A stretch of DNA of 55,330 bases from Thermoplasmata archaeon (GCA_021802055.1 JAKAAY010000012.1:1-55330); one strand, 5' to 3'; counted from the first letter of the stretch, positions 27,156-32,525 are shown. Program-made: numbers and translations. The notes: a model not told the origin generated them from the sequence alone.

Positions 27156-27674
27156 ATGGCCAGAGAGGATAGACACTCCCGGATCAGGATCATGTTTGTG
27201 GACTTCAGCATGGATGATCCCAAGAGGGCAACCATGAGAAAGCTTGAGAGGTTTGGCCTTGCACGACGGATCTCACCGGATTTTATCAGGGGAGCATACA
27301 CACTGACACCTTTCGCCCAGGCCTATCTCATGAGAGCGGATCGAAATCAATGCATTCGGAACGGGATGTGCGTCCTTGAGGCTTCGTGGAACAGGATTGA
27401 AGAGACGGGCAATATCAGGGCTCGCAACGCCAGGAAACTCCCCCTCCTGTTGCCGGTGAATCCCGTAAATTATGGTAAGCCCGGAAAGCTGAGTTCAGTT
27501 GAGGCGGTTGCTGGGGCATTGGCAATCATCGGCCTGGAAGATGATGCAAGAATGCTGCTGTCTAAATTCAGCTGGGCCCAGTCGTTTCTTGAAACCAACA
27601 AACTGCCGCTGATGGAATACAGCCAAGCAGAGACCGATGATGAAATTAGGGTTATGGAGCATGAATTTTTCTGA
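27156..27674 (+). CDS. tsr3: Ribosome biogenesis protein Tsr3 (rRNA aminocarboxypropyltransferase)
   Basis: 172 residues of the DUF367/Tsr3 family, which transfers the 3-amino-3-carboxypropyl group of SAM to an N1-methylpseudouridine in small-subunit rRNA. Seen: FVDFSMDDPKRATMRKLERF, CVLEASWNRIEE, RKLPLLLPVNPVNYGKPGKL followed by SSVEAVAGALAIIG, and LLSKFSWAQSFLE. The start at 27156 precedes the conserved RIMFVD strand. It converges with the PP-loop gene. With Nob1, the window holds two small-subunit rRNA maturation factors. Confidence 0.9.
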   Translation: MAREDRHSRIRIMFVDFSMDDPKRATMRKLERFGLARRISPDFIRGAYTLTPFAQAYLMRADRNQCIRNGMCVLEASWNRIEETGNIRARNARKLPLLLPVNPVNYGKPGKLSSVEAVAGALAIIGLEDDARMLLSKFSWAQSFLETNKLPLMEYSQAETDDEIRVMEHEFF

Positions 27675-27687
27675 TGATCGATGGATT

Positions 27688-29115
27688 TCAATCCGGATTG
27701 TCTGTCCTTATCCAGTGGTTTTCCTTCAGCGCATAGATACCGTCTGAATACTGTGAGATGATTTTCTGTATTTTGCTCCTGAATATCTCCGGTACCCTGA
27801 AAAATGGGGTAGACTCACCATCAAGGAGATGAATGCCTGTGACGTGGTTCAGATCCTGTTGCGAAGCCGGGTTGTGAATCCTGTCCAGCAGGAACCTTGA
27901 CTCGTCAGGATCCAGCCTCATTCTTCCGCTTTTAACACTTTCCATGACATCCTCCATGGATGTGTGCGTGTAGCCGATTTCTGCAGGATTTCCCCCCTGT
28001 GCGGATATGAAGAGGTAAATCCCGTAGCACTTGGTGCACTTTCCGCATGGGAGTATGTCGCCGTTGCTGAAATGGCAGCTGTGACACGACCTCTGCTGCA
28101 GGAAGAGGTCATGGTAACGGAGCATAAGCGCCTTCTCCACAACATTACCGGCAATGGGATATACAGCGGACCAGAGTCTTATTTCGTGGCTCTTCCTATC
28201 CATGTATCTGTTTACCATCGTTGCGAAGTCTTCGCTCTGGTCAAAGACGCCATAGTAGTGTTTGATCCCCCTGTACGGCCCCATCTCTCTGGGATCATCA
28301 AACTCGTTCCCCAGAAGTATCCCCGAGATGCCGTATTTCAGGAGGAGAGGAGCGGCAGCAAAGACATAAACCGGGAATATGAAGAGCTGTACCGGATATG
28401 TGTCTGCGCGTTTCCGGATAGTCTCCCTGTCAAGTATCTCTATGAAGTCCAGGGCCCATGCATAGAACCTGTCAACGTTTGTCCACACCCTCCTTACATT
28501 TGGAAAGTGTTCGCTGAAGTAGCGGTAAGACTTGAGCGCAGTTCTCCAGTGCCCACCTGATTCGTTTATGAATACAGGATATACATCGGCGCCAGTCTCC
28601 CTGAGCATGCCGTATGAGAGGAGGCTTTCCTTGCCCCCCGATGAAAGTACTGCCACCCTGTTTTGGAGAGAGTGGTGAAATCCCCAGTCCGATTCAGTGA
28701 CATTGCCTGTGATTCTGCAGGCTCCCCTGGCATTATAAGCTGTGACCTCAGCGTCTGACGGAACATATTCCCTCTTTATGAATTCATATCTCCGCCTGCA
28801 GATCTTGTTGATGAATACCTCTACTGAATTGATCTCTGAAAATTCACGGAGAAGTTCCAGGTCAACGCTGGAAACAGCACCCTCGATATTAACCTCCCGC
28901 GCAAAATAGGAGAAATTCAGCACAGGCATGGCGAGGATCATGGAGGCCAGTGAATCCGGTATCTCAACAGTCTCTCCAAAGTTGAATTCCAGTTTAAATT
29001 CACTTCTCCCGGCCCGGGTAAAAAATTCTATCTTCCCCGTCAGACGGTTTTCATGGAGGTCGGGCTTTCCAACTACAATGCGATCAATTGATGCTATTCT
29101 GTCCCAGTAATTCAT
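27688..29115 (-). CDS. PP-loop ATPase with Cys cluster, MurL-like
   Basis: About 475 residues. The N-terminal ~145 residues are strand-rich and include LNFSYFAREVNIEG and SVEVFINKICRRRYEF. A PP-loop (SSGGKESLLSY, near residue 160) follows, as in enzymes that adenylate a substrate. Five cysteines sit in SCHSCHFSNGDILPCGKCTK and the next C (about 344-363), probably zinc-binding. This order resembles MurL, the ATP-dependent epimerase of UDP-MurNAc-L-Ala-L-Glu, and more distantly QueC; from memory, not a search. The ATG at 29115 follows the DUF1611 stop by 2 bases; TTG at 29121 would overlap it. Last gene of a three-gene unit. Confidence 0.65.
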   Translation of the reverse strand: MNYWDRIASIDRIVVGKPDLHENRLTGKIEFFTRAGRSEFKLEFNFGETVEIPDSLASMILAMPVLNFSYFAREVNIEGAVSSVDLELLREFSEINSVEVFINKICRRRYEFIKREYVPSDAEVTAYNARGACRITGNVTESDWGFHHSLQNRVAVLSSGGKESLLSYGMLRETGADVYPVFINESGGHWRTALKSYRYFSEHFPNVRRVWTNVDRFYAWALDFIEILDRETIRKRADTYPVQLFIFPVYVFAAAPLLLKYGISGILLGNEFDDPREMGPYRGIKHYYGVFDQSEDFATMVNRYMDRKSHEIRLWSAVYPIAGNVVEKALMLRYHDLFLQQRSCHSCHFSNGDILPCGKCTKCYGIYLFISAQGGNPAEIGYTHTSMEDVMESVKSGRMRLDPDESRFLLDRIHNPASQQDLNHVTGIHLLDGESTPFFRVPEIFRSKIQKIISQYSDGIYALKENHWIRTDNPD

Positions 29116-29117
29116 GC

Positions 29118-30185
29118 TCAATTACCAAGATCTGAGATATATTCTGCAATGTCAGTCAGGTCTGAAAGGGGATCGAACACCGGTAGCGCTGTTTCTGAGT
29201 GTATACTCTCAATGCTTTCCGGAATCTCTTCCTTCTTCATCCCCTCACTGTTTAATGACACGGCGATTACCTTTGTTTCTGCAAGTAACTCTATGGCCCT
29301 TATGTACCTTGAAAGCTCAGGAATCCTGAACTGCTCAAATCCATCGTAGAAGAGTCTTTTGGGGGCATGCTGAAGCACCACATATTTAGGTCTGCACGCA
29401 CCGAGAATCTCAAAGCTGCCGGCGTATGCCGGGTGTATGATCGATCCCTGCCCCTCTATGAACATGAAGTCAGGTTTTTCCTCGTTCCACGCTTTTACGG
29501 TGATTGATTCCAGATTCCCGGAAATGAAGTCGTTGATCATTGCGTCTGTGACAACGGTGTACTTGAAACCCTGCATCCATGCGGTCTGACCGGTTCCTAT
29601 CATCACGGATTTCCTGCCAATACGGTTCATTGCTTCGTTAAGGAACACTGCGGTAGTGCGCTTCCCAATTGCACTGTCGGTTCCCAGCACTGCAATTCTG
29701 GTCGCACCCACCTTCCCTATTTCTCCCGTGAAAGGATTCCTCATGTCACGGAACATCTTTCTCACGTCGGTGATCGTTATGCCCTTCCTTGCTGCAATAG
29801 ACGCAAATTCTCTGTCTTCTCCCAGAAATTCATGCAGCCCGCTGACTACGTTCAGTCCGGATTCCAGTGCATCCTTTATAAATGGACGGAAGTTCCCGGG
29901 AAGAAACCCTCCGTCGGTGGCAACTCCCACAACTATGGTATTAGCATGATGATCTATGGCTTCCTTCACACTGGAGGCAACGGGTATGCCATTTGGGCTT
30001 CCCGTGAGAATCCAGCCGGCATCCTGGCCGGAATACCTGGAATCTATAACGGAGGTGATCCGGTATCTCCTGCTGAATCTCACAAGGCCATTCGCGGTTT
30101 TTCCGTAAGTACTTCCGAATACGCCTTCAGCAAGCACTACTGCGTTGTCCAGACCATGCCACTTCCGGTTATTACTATTACGCAC
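29118..30185 (-). CDS. DUF1611 / DgcN-family protein
   Basis: 355 residues. The N-terminal Rossmann-like domain begins NAVVLAEGVFGSTYGKTANG; the C-terminal P-loop domain has VLGTDSAIGKRTTAVFLNEA (about 166-185), GTGQTAWMQG and FIEGQGSIIHPAYAG. In bacteria DgcN N-acetylates D-glutamate in a catabolic route, and relatives often sit beside dipeptide epimerases. The GTG start at 30185 overlaps the PLP gene by 49 bases; a GTG at 30137 forms a TAGTG stop-start overlap but would remove the first strand, so 30185 is kept. Middle gene of the unit with the PP-loop protein. Confidence 0.82.
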   Translation of the reverse strand: MRNSNNRKWHGLDNAVVLAEGVFGSTYGKTANGLVRFSRRYRITSVIDSRYSGQDAGWILTGSPNGIPVASSVKEAIDHHANTIVVGVATDGGFLPGNFRPFIKDALESGLNVVSGLHEFLGEDREFASIAARKGITITDVRKMFRDMRNPFTGEIGKVGATRIAVLGTDSAIGKRTTAVFLNEAMNRIGRKSVMIGTGQTAWMQGFKYTVVTDAMINDFISGNLESITVKAWNEEKPDFMFIEGQGSIIHPAYAGSFEILGACRPKYVVLQHAPKRLFYDGFEQFRIPELSRYIRAIELLAETKVIAVSLNSEGMKKEEIPESIESIHSETALPVFDPLSDLTDIAEYISDLGN

Positions 30186-31102
30186 TCCTGGTTGCTTCCG
30201 AGCCTGGATAACACCCTTGTAGCTGCGGCCAGTGCCGATGAAGAAGCTGGAAGCGATTTGATTCCCTCGGTCTTTTCAATGATGCTTGTATAACTGAGCA
30301 TTTCATCGTCTGTTACATACTCGCCAAATCCTCTTGTGGAATAGAGAGAGTCAAGTGCTTTCTGACCGTCCAGCGCCTTATAAGATACCAGTGGTTCGTT
30401 GAGGTGCGTTTCCGATATTGCGGATGGGTGCAGGTTCACAAGTTTCCTTAGTCCCAGCTTCCATGAGTGTATCACGGGGTTTCCTCCCGCGGTACTGGCA
30501 GCAATGAATCTGGGGATCGTGTCTATGAGCCCGCCTGACTTCAGCCTCCTGAAGCCGGAATAAATACCGGAAAGCGTTGTTCCGTTGCCCACAGGCACCG
30601 AGATGAGTTTTGGTGCGTGTCCCAACTGTTCCACAATCTCCTGAGCTATCTTTTCGTAACCATATATGTCAAGATCGGAGTTTGGTGATCCCGGAGTACA
30701 GTTATACCAGGCATTGTCGTTTGCCAAGTCCCTGACATAGTCCACTGCTTCCTCATATTTCATGGGAACGCTAAGGATGTCTGCCCCGTTCTGCACCATT
30801 TCTCCTGTTCTTCCGTTTGAGTAAAAGGACGGCACGGCAGCAACCGTTCTCAGGCCTGACTCCCGTGCATAATATGAAATGGATGCCCCATAGTTTCCGC
30901 ACGTAGCCAGGCATACGGTATCGTAGCCTTTTTCAATGGCACGCATCATGTGGAGTTTGGAAATCCTGTCCTTCTGAGTTCCAGTTTGGCTAGCCCCCTC
31001 AAACTTTATAAAAAATTTCTTCAGTCTAAGGGATTTTTCCAGATTCCTCGCCCTTATGAGGGGAGTACTACCTGGTGGTTCCTCTTCGCTGACCTCTTCC
31101 AT
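30137..31102 (-). CDS. Threonine synthase-like PLP enzyme (fold type II)
   Basis: 321 residues, short for threonine synthase. The PLP lysine is K44 in GTQKDRISK; the Asn loop is TCGNYGASISYYARESGL, the phosphate-binding glycine loop VPVGNGTTLSG, and the C-terminal serine region PASSSALAAATR. The usual SFKDRG is QKDRIS here and SSGNTGAA is TCGNYGAS, so it diverges from canonical ThrC. Other reactions of this fold (threonine or diaminopropionate lyase, cysteate synthase, racemase) are open. A minus-strand T/A-rich TATA candidate lies near 31125, about 25 bases upstream. First gene of the unit with DUF1611 and the PP-loop protein. Confidence 0.8.
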   Translation of the reverse strand: MEEVSEEEPPGSTPLIRARNLEKSLRLKKFFIKFEGASQTGTQKDRISKLHMMRAIEKGYDTVCLATCGNYGASISYYARESGLRTVAAVPSFYSNGRTGEMVQNGADILSVPMKYEEAVDYVRDLANDNAWYNCTPGSPNSDLDIYGYEKIAQEIVEQLGHAPKLISVPVGNGTTLSGIYSGFRRLKSGGLIDTIPRFIAASTAGGNPVIHSWKLGLRKLVNLHPSAISETHLNEPLVSYKALDGQKALDSLYSTRGFGEYVTDDEMLSYTSIIEKTEGIKSLPASSSALAAATRVLSRLGSNQECVIVITGSGMVWTTQ

Positions 31103-31259
31103 CTATTCTACCTCAAGGGTATACTTTAAAAAAGTGAGTGAAAGTTAGTATAAAAACATTTTTTATCGAAACCAGCGAAAATAAACCTGGAGACTCCGTG
31201 AAATCCTATGTCCAACAAAATTGCATAAATAGTATACAAACAGCTGCATATACATATAA

Positions 31260-32063
31260 TTATATTAATATTGTTTCCATACCGGATTCAGACATGAATG
31301 CACGCACCATATCCCTGACCCGTCCCCTGGTACCCTTCTTGTCCACGATGAGCCCCCTGCAGCCTCTAGTCTTGTTTACCGCTTCCATAATTTGCGAACT
31401 GGTGATACTCTCGTGAATATGCTTGGAAATCAGGTGCCCCACATTCATATTGTTCTGCATGACATATTCCGTGATCTTTGGCATATAGTGGCCTCCTCCG
31501 ATCCCGACATAATTTGGGAGGGCATTTCCTCTGTTTTCCATTACCGCTGATGTGACTGAATCCAGAGCAGAATCATCCTCCCAGTCAGCGCTCGTTGTTC
31601 CTATCTCTATATAGAAGTTCTCCGCCTCAAGATATGGGCCATGATGGGTCGCCTCAAAGGTTACCATAAAATGATCTCCAGTATATGATTCCCTCATGAT
31701 CCTGAGTGCCTGGCTCATCATTTCCGGGGCCGAAGGGGTAATGGTCATGGGTAGCCCCCCCAGTTCATTGGATCCGTAGTTGCCAGTTGGATGTACAGTG
31801 AGTGAACTGATCTGTGCTGAAGAAGAATGTTTGGAGAGGAAAACCACGGTCCCTATGTTCAGATTTTTCAGCTTGGGGTCTCCATTTATATTGTCATGAT
31901 TCAAATGTATTGAATCTATATAAGTAAGAATAAAATTATCCCTGCTGTAGAAACCGTCCTGCATTGTGAACTTCCACTTTTCCTGTATGCGGCCTGCGAT
32001 GCTTTTGCTGGCCGGATCCTTCGTCGATGCAACTATCAGGATCTTAGGTTCAGGGTCTGACAT
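31260..32063 (-). CDS. dtdA: D-aminoacyl-tRNA deacylase, archaeal type
   Basis: 267 residues of the DTD2/GEK1 family, which hydrolyses D-aminoacyl-tRNAs as chirality proofreading. Family motifs seen: IVASTKDPASKSIAGRI, the central LTVHPTGNYG, VTFEATHHGPYLEAENFYIE, and VGIGGGHYMPKITEYVMQ. The length is standard. It starts 3 bases after the stop of the helical protein gene. The following gap (31103-31259) is very A+T-rich and includes the promoter of the PLP-enzyme unit. Confidence 0.93.
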   Translation of the reverse strand: MSDPEPKILIVASTKDPASKSIAGRIQEKWKFTMQDGFYSRDNFILTYIDSIHLNHDNINGDPKLKNLNIGTVVFLSKHSSSAQISSLTVHPTGNYGSNELGGLPMTITPSAPEMMSQALRIMRESYTGDHFMVTFEATHHGPYLEAENFYIEIGTTSADWEDDSALDSVTSAVMENRGNALPNYVGIGGGHYMPKITEYVMQNNMNVGHLISKHIHESITSSQIMEAVNKTRGCRGLIVDKKGTRGRVRDMVRAFMSESGMETILI

Positions 32064-32066
32064 TGC

Positions 32067-32525
32067 TCAGTATGATCCCTGAATTAAGTCATTGTACAAC
32101 CTGTCGGCCCTTGCCATCATCTTCTCCTTTTCCCTCATTATCCCTTCGAATCTCTCAATTGTAGAGGAGTCGGAGAGCTGTGGTTTCAGCTGTTTAAGAT
32201 CGTCCATGGATCTTCTCTCCATGGTGGAAATGAAAAGAAGGAGATCACGAAGGCTCGAAACATCCACATTCTCTTCCTGGTGAAGATGTTCACTTGAATG
32301 GAGATAAACCAGTTCCTCGCCAGGATTCCCCAGGTCACCTGTTGTATGGTCTTTCATTCTGCTGAGTTCGTTTTTGAGTGCTTCATTGCCCTTGATGAAT
32401 CGCCCCAGAAATTCCCGAAGGTTCTGAAGCCGTACAGTGCCTCTAGTCTCCCTGTACTGGGCTATAAGTTCTTCTTCAACTTCAACAGCTCTGCGGATGG
32501 CATTTGTTTCTGTGATATCTTCCAT
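32067..32525 (-). CDS. Small all-helical protein, ferritin-like bundle possible
   Basis: 152 residues, strongly charged and helical throughout: AVEVEEELIAQYRE, FLGRFIKGNEALKNELSRMK, LRDLLLFISTMERRSMDDL, FEGIMREKEKMMARADRLY. The four-helix spacing recalls rubrerythrin-like bundles, but clear ExxH metal motifs are missing, so a non-metal or degenerate version is more likely. I do not recognise the family. It precedes dtdA by 3 bases and so is probably co-transcribed with it. Confidence 0.7.
   Translation of the reverse strand: MEDITETNAIRRAVEVEEELIAQYRETRGTVRLQNLREFLGRFIKGNEALKNELSRMKDHTTGDLGNPGEELVYLHSSEHLHQEENVDVSSLRDLLLFISTMERRSMDDLKQLKPQLSDSSTIERFEGIMREKEKMMARADRLYNDLIQGSY

Follow-up and report, generated by a model that had tools for sequence, protein, structure and literature searches.

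We show that a three-gene operon encoding, in this order, a threonine-synthase-like PLP enzyme (TS-like), a DUF1611 protein and a PP-loop protein (PPL) is kept far beyond the genus of the Thermoplasmata archaeon whose 55,330-nt stretch of DNA (hereafter the window) we analysed. The best explanation of the whole, to which we give about an even chance of being right, is that the DUF1611 protein acylates an amino acid, PPL inverts the resulting N-acyl amino acid with ATP, and TS-like handles the free amino acid. The unit looks like a DgcN-type module with a new variant partner, and like a previously undescribed pathway.

All genes of the unit were present where the sequence-only reading had placed them, on the minus strand of the window. 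PPL (27688..29121, 477 aa), a MurL/QueC-type PP-loop ATP pyrophosphatase with a cysteine cluster and a predicted ATP-dependent epimerase, overlaps by 4 bp the gene of the DUF1611 protein (29118..30185, 355 aa), a member of the DgcN superfamily and candidate N-acyltransferase. The latter overlaps by 49 bp the gene of TS-like (30137..31102, 321 aa), a fold-type II PLP enzyme of the PRK06381 group. These overlaps, computed with the longest starts, agree with the tight packing described earlier. A gap of 157 bp separates TS-like from the D-aminoacyl-tRNA deacylase gene dtdA (31260..32063, minus strand; Pfam tRNA_deacylase 195.9 bits for a cut-off of 33.6), beyond which lies a gene for a 152-aa protein (32067-32525, minus strand). 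On the other side, the gene of the Tsr3/DUF367 rRNA aminocarboxypropyltransferase (27156..27674, plus strand) is convergent to PPL and outside the unit.

PPL is encoded in 91 of the 117 genomes of the window organism's order and, in a phylum-wide sample, recurs in further families. A scan of contigs gave 301 relatives, 80 of which were kept; 102 PPL loci remained once near-identical ones had been removed, and our counts of upstream genes use those with enough upstream sequence. The DUF1611 gene directly precedes PPL, in the same orientation, in 92 of the 98 distinct loci with room for it, an arrangement far beyond chance that holds down to about 35% PPL identity. TS-like is also in place in 80 of 92 loci, and DtdA in 38 of 81. 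Hence the unit comprises TS-like, DUF1611 and PPL. DtdA does lie directly upstream in the same direction in the window, as had been noted, but it is a family-level neighbour, and we rejected it as a core member because its linkage is confined to one family. The hosts of PPL are Thermoplasmatota, Bathyarchaeota, one Methanomassiliicoccales MAG and one bacterial (Myxococcales) MAG; the three-gene linkage expected from the window extends across phyla.

Some genomes depart from this organisation. TS-like is relocated in two genomes of family f5, in one of which (L236:6179-7755) it follows the gene of a small FtsZ-like (GVGGAGVN) protein. It was not found in genomes G002 (f2) and G230, the latter having PPL without DUF1611 as well. 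The Myxococcales MAG (G375, Myxococcota) carries TS-like and DUF1611 at one locus, adjoining DnaN/RecF-like genes (L290:4755-7481), and PPL plus a GNAT gene at another, on a separate contig among cytochrome genes (L187:5941-8071). Since this MAG has both loci, the three genes are passed on as a set even where they are not linked, and we take it as a transfer of the gene set into or from a bacterium. We found no PPL on plasmids or phages. Second, unlinked copies of PPL occur in genomes G143 and G341 (L103:178-1641 and L104:3488-4876). In Thermogymnomonas acidicola (L173) each of the three genes of the unit matches as two fragments read in different frames, which likely reflects frameshifts or assembly errors. 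Convergent to the 3' end of PPL, 55 loci have Tsr3 and 24 a RimI-like GNAT (e.g. L171:7269-7760), a swap that tracks lineage. Outside the order, the GNAT adjoining PPL is RimI-like with a score of 79.5, just under the cut-off of 86.4, and in L171 and L187 PPL and GNAT stand together without an adjoining DUF1611. We left the GNAT out of the model, as its gene could be a neighbour with a housekeeping role.

PPL itself matches no Pfam or NCBIfam family. Its PP-loop, SSGGKESLL (residues 160-168; 28618..28644, minus strand), has G163, K164 and L167 invariant among 63 relatives. The five clustered cysteines reported earlier are C346, C349, C359, C362 and C365, in the stretch QRSCHSCH...PCGKCTKCYG (residues 343-367; 28021..28095, minus strand), where C346, C359, C362, K364 and C365 are invariant. 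AlphaFold predicts the structure with confidence (pLDDT 94), and the nearest solved folds are QatC, QueC and Cap9, with QatC aligning over the full length at a TM-score of only 0.42-0.45; no MurL structure is among the structural matches. Profile comparisons by hhalign gave E 6.8e-9 (prob 95.8, 196 columns, from the PP-loop to the cysteine cluster) against two uncharacterised Myxococcota MurL-like proteins (which score 109-121 bits on the MurL model; neither is XOO_1319), and E 2.8e-5 against nine QueC proteins. With the broader set of 63 PPL sequences these values became 1.1e-11 and 6.3e-6. PPL and the MurL-like proteins have in common the lysines in GK(D/E)S and CxKC, which QueC lacks. The PP-loop of QueC is SGGxDS and that of PPL SGGKES, or SGGKDS in some relatives. 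The spacing of the cysteines is similar in PPL (C349-x9-CxxCxxC) and QueC (C(x)8CxxCxxC), the invariant first cysteine of PPL being C346. The E-values, lysine motifs and fold matches together place PPL in the QueC/MurL superfamily, nearest to MurL among the families tested.

The resemblance to MurL put forward from the window alone thus stands as remote homology, but does not extend to the curated MurL model (NF041275, cut-off 700 bits), which the window PPL does not match and which 4 of 29 PPL relatives match with a best E of 3.8e-4. PPL is a distant relative of MurL, similar in size, and not a MurL by the curated model. It also differs from MurL in its linkage to DUF1611, in having no recognised Mur ligase (MurD2) adjoining it in the surveyed loci, and in its archaeal hosts, where murein is not expected. 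With this similarity to MurL and a linkage kept across phyla, we saw neither of the two outcomes at odds with the sequence-only reading, namely a clear best match to a tRNA or 7-deazaguanine enzyme with no MurL similarity, or genes unlinked in relatives. PP-loop paralogues from two archaeal genomes (L107:2916-4151 and L108:437-1855) match MurL at 5e-6 and 4.8e-4 and are closer to MurL than PPL is; they carry a CNCx..WCHxCNKC motif and have no DUF1611 nearby. The predicted structure of one MurL-like protein (pLDDT 49) was too poor for use.

Given its fold and cysteine cluster, one might suppose that PPL is a 7-deazaguanine enzyme, acting in the archaeosine path or in the deazaguanylation of a partner. 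At the position of the QueC motif YPDC, PPL carries an invariant Q295 preceded by a near-invariant D294, and PADLOC returns a QueC match (0.001), which covers only the P-loop. Yet, PPL lacks the QueC substrate motifs VPxRN and YPDC (PMC13329287), its operon has no queuosine or archaeosine gene, and the window organism's genome encodes a separate canonical QueC (230 bits, with VPARN and YPDC). The NCBIfam QueC model was matched by none of the 29 PPL relatives, and the Pfam models DUF6395 and QueC by 11 and 6 of them, all weakly. We consider a 7-deazaguanine role very improbable. The separate QueC led us to discard PPL as the archaeosine QueC, and the restriction of the PADLOC match to the P-loop to discard it as a Qat defence component.

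The same folds bring up another kind of chemistry. QueC and Cap9 use ATP to activate a carboxylate (PMC13279940), from which they form amide bonds, and the QueC superfamily has often been repurposed (PMC13329287). PPL might thus be an ATP-dependent ligase that passes an adenylated N-acyl amino acid to an amine, yielding an amide or capped dipeptide that could serve as osmolyte, cofactor or protein modification. Such a ligase fits the presence of amide-forming enzymes in the superfamily, which counts against an epimerase, and the best structural matches, QatC, QueC and Cap9, speak for it. However, the sequence profile is nearer to MurL-like proteins than to QueC, and where DUF1611 has partners in other genomes, these are racemases or epimerases rather than ligases. 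We find a ligase conceivable, if on the unlikely side.

These partners form part of the case for PPL as an epimerase. The DUF1611 protein of the window, whose P-loop is GTDSAIGKRTT (residues 168-178; 29652..29684, minus strand), has both domains above their Pfam cut-offs (DUF1611, 210 bits for a cut-off of 25; DUF1611_N, 89 bits), which confirms its identity. In the DgcN-DgcA D-glutamate pathway, a DUF1611 N-acetyltransferase acts with an enolase-superfamily N-acetyl-D-Glu racemase (PMC10845958). The unit resembles this pathway in having a DUF1611 superfamily protein next to a predicted stereo-inverting enzyme. It differs in that the putative epimerase is an ATP enzyme of the MurL/QueC type, in the addition of a TS-like PLP enzyme, and in a DUF1611 score far below the cut-off of the NCBIfam DgcN equivalog (163 vs 480 bits). 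In a small sample of annotated plasmids, DUF1611 adjoins dgcA in Pseudoalteromonas, a dipeptide epimerase in Halorussus, where peptidoglycan genes lie around it, and an Orr-like (alanine/ornithine-racemase-like) PLP enzyme in Phaeobacter and Vibrio; the Streptomyces and Haladaptatus loci have no obvious epimerase neighbour. Within the order, the sister family f3 is without PPL and retains DUF1611, and in 2 of the 5 genomes examined from this family an epimerase of the L-Ala-D/L-Glu type (254 bits, and 203 to DgcA) is encoded one gene away from it. The DUF1611s linked to PPL group in a tree as a single clade (100/96), apart from those of f3 and haloarchaea and next to a PLP-racemase-linked pair. 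The window organism's genome has no L-Ala-D/L-Glu-type epimerase at E <= 1e-10, and so no partner of the DgcA type at this threshold; matches to the epimerase model in the Thermoplasma-group genome G097 and in Ferroplasma are weak, of sugar-dehydratase strength. The epimerase and racemase partners of DUF1611 in other genomes support the earlier interpretation. On genomic grounds, partners are exchanged around DUF1611, with PPL filling the epimerase slot. Since DUF1611 is repeatedly paired with stereo-inverting enzymes, PPL most likely replaces the epimerase. This is not always so, because genes for an M14 peptidase and an L-Ala-D/L-Glu-type epimerase flank PPL in 8 of 77 loci.

TS-like was described from the window as a fold-type II PLP enzyme with altered threonine-synthase motifs, and this was confirmed. 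It matches PALP (185 bits), keeps the PLP lysine (K44 in TGTQKDR) and the overall fold of threonine synthase, and passes the NCBIfam PRK06381 threonine synthase model (409.5 vs 266 bits), but falls below the general ThrC model TIGR00260 (84.8 vs 167 bits). It could accordingly be a true second threonine synthase, with DUF1611 and PPL working on phospho- or acyl-homoserine intermediates in the biosynthesis of threonine or another amino acid. Yet, its canonical SxNPxRxEGQKT stretch and TGNG end are replaced, and it has an extra NEPL..DGQ segment. The three genomes checked (the window organism, G097 and Ferroplasma) each encode a separate PRK06450 threonine synthase (417-568 bits), so that TS-like is not the cell's only one, and PPL and DUF1611 are kept together where TS-like is absent. 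Biosynthesis of this kind is thus an improbable role for the unit. The substrate-side motifs of TS-like are conserved from Thermoplasmatota to Bathyarchaeota, and it forms a distinct subfamily. Its role is the weakest part of the pathway model, in which we assume that the free amino acid is its product or its substrate.

In the MurL reaction a glutamyl residue is epimerised at the expense of ATP, with AMP as a product, and those who discovered the enzyme propose that the alpha-carboxylate is adenylated (PMC8788868). As the substrate for chemistry of this type is an N-acyl amino acid, and PPL adjoins an N-acyltransferase homologue, we favour PPL as an epimerase. Gene linkage, homology, motifs and partner exchange lead us to infer the following steps. 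DUF1611 would N-acylate an amino acid, glutamate or another acidic one being the most likely, and PPL would adenylate the carboxylate of the product with ATP. The activated ester would acidify the alpha-proton, through an oxazolone-like or enolate state of the kind suggested by how activated N-acyl amino acids behave, and the centre would be inverted. Hydrolysis would then free the epimer, AMP and PPi. PPL would stand in for the enolase-superfamily epimerase (DgcA) or PLP racemase that accompanies DUF1611 in other genomes, and TS-like would probably make or consume the free amino acid. The choice of glutamate is ours by inference. The M14 peptidase and epimerase genes at eight loci recall murein-peptide breakdown, suggesting a glutamyl substrate and a D to L direction. 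But the window organism's genome lacks this type of epimerase, and the evidence on direction conflicts, since MurL works only from L to D and DgcN is described in D-amino-acid catabolism.

Taken as a whole, the earlier interpretation is partly supported. Its most ambitious extension, a dedicated archaeal route present in at least two phyla, in which a MurL cousin working outside murein would supply some cell component with a D-amino acid or an epimerised acyl-amino acid by an ATP-driven, one-way reaction, seems doubtful to us. We know of no activity for any relative of PPL, and among the papers searched we found none combining MurL, archaea, epimerase and peptidoglycan. To our knowledge, ATP-driven epimerisation has been described so far only for MurL, in some bacteria; if our model is true, it operates in archaea too. 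DUF1611 N-acyltransferases would then make up a general module in which epimerases of unrelated folds replace one another, and sister lineages would do the same job with an unrelated enzyme. By the title of a 2001 report by Long et al. (cited in PMC6047364), Thermoplasma acidophilum is said to have D-amino acids and a PLP-dependent aspartate racemase activity. The operon would offer genes with which the D-amino-acid metabolism of Thermoplasmatota could be tested.
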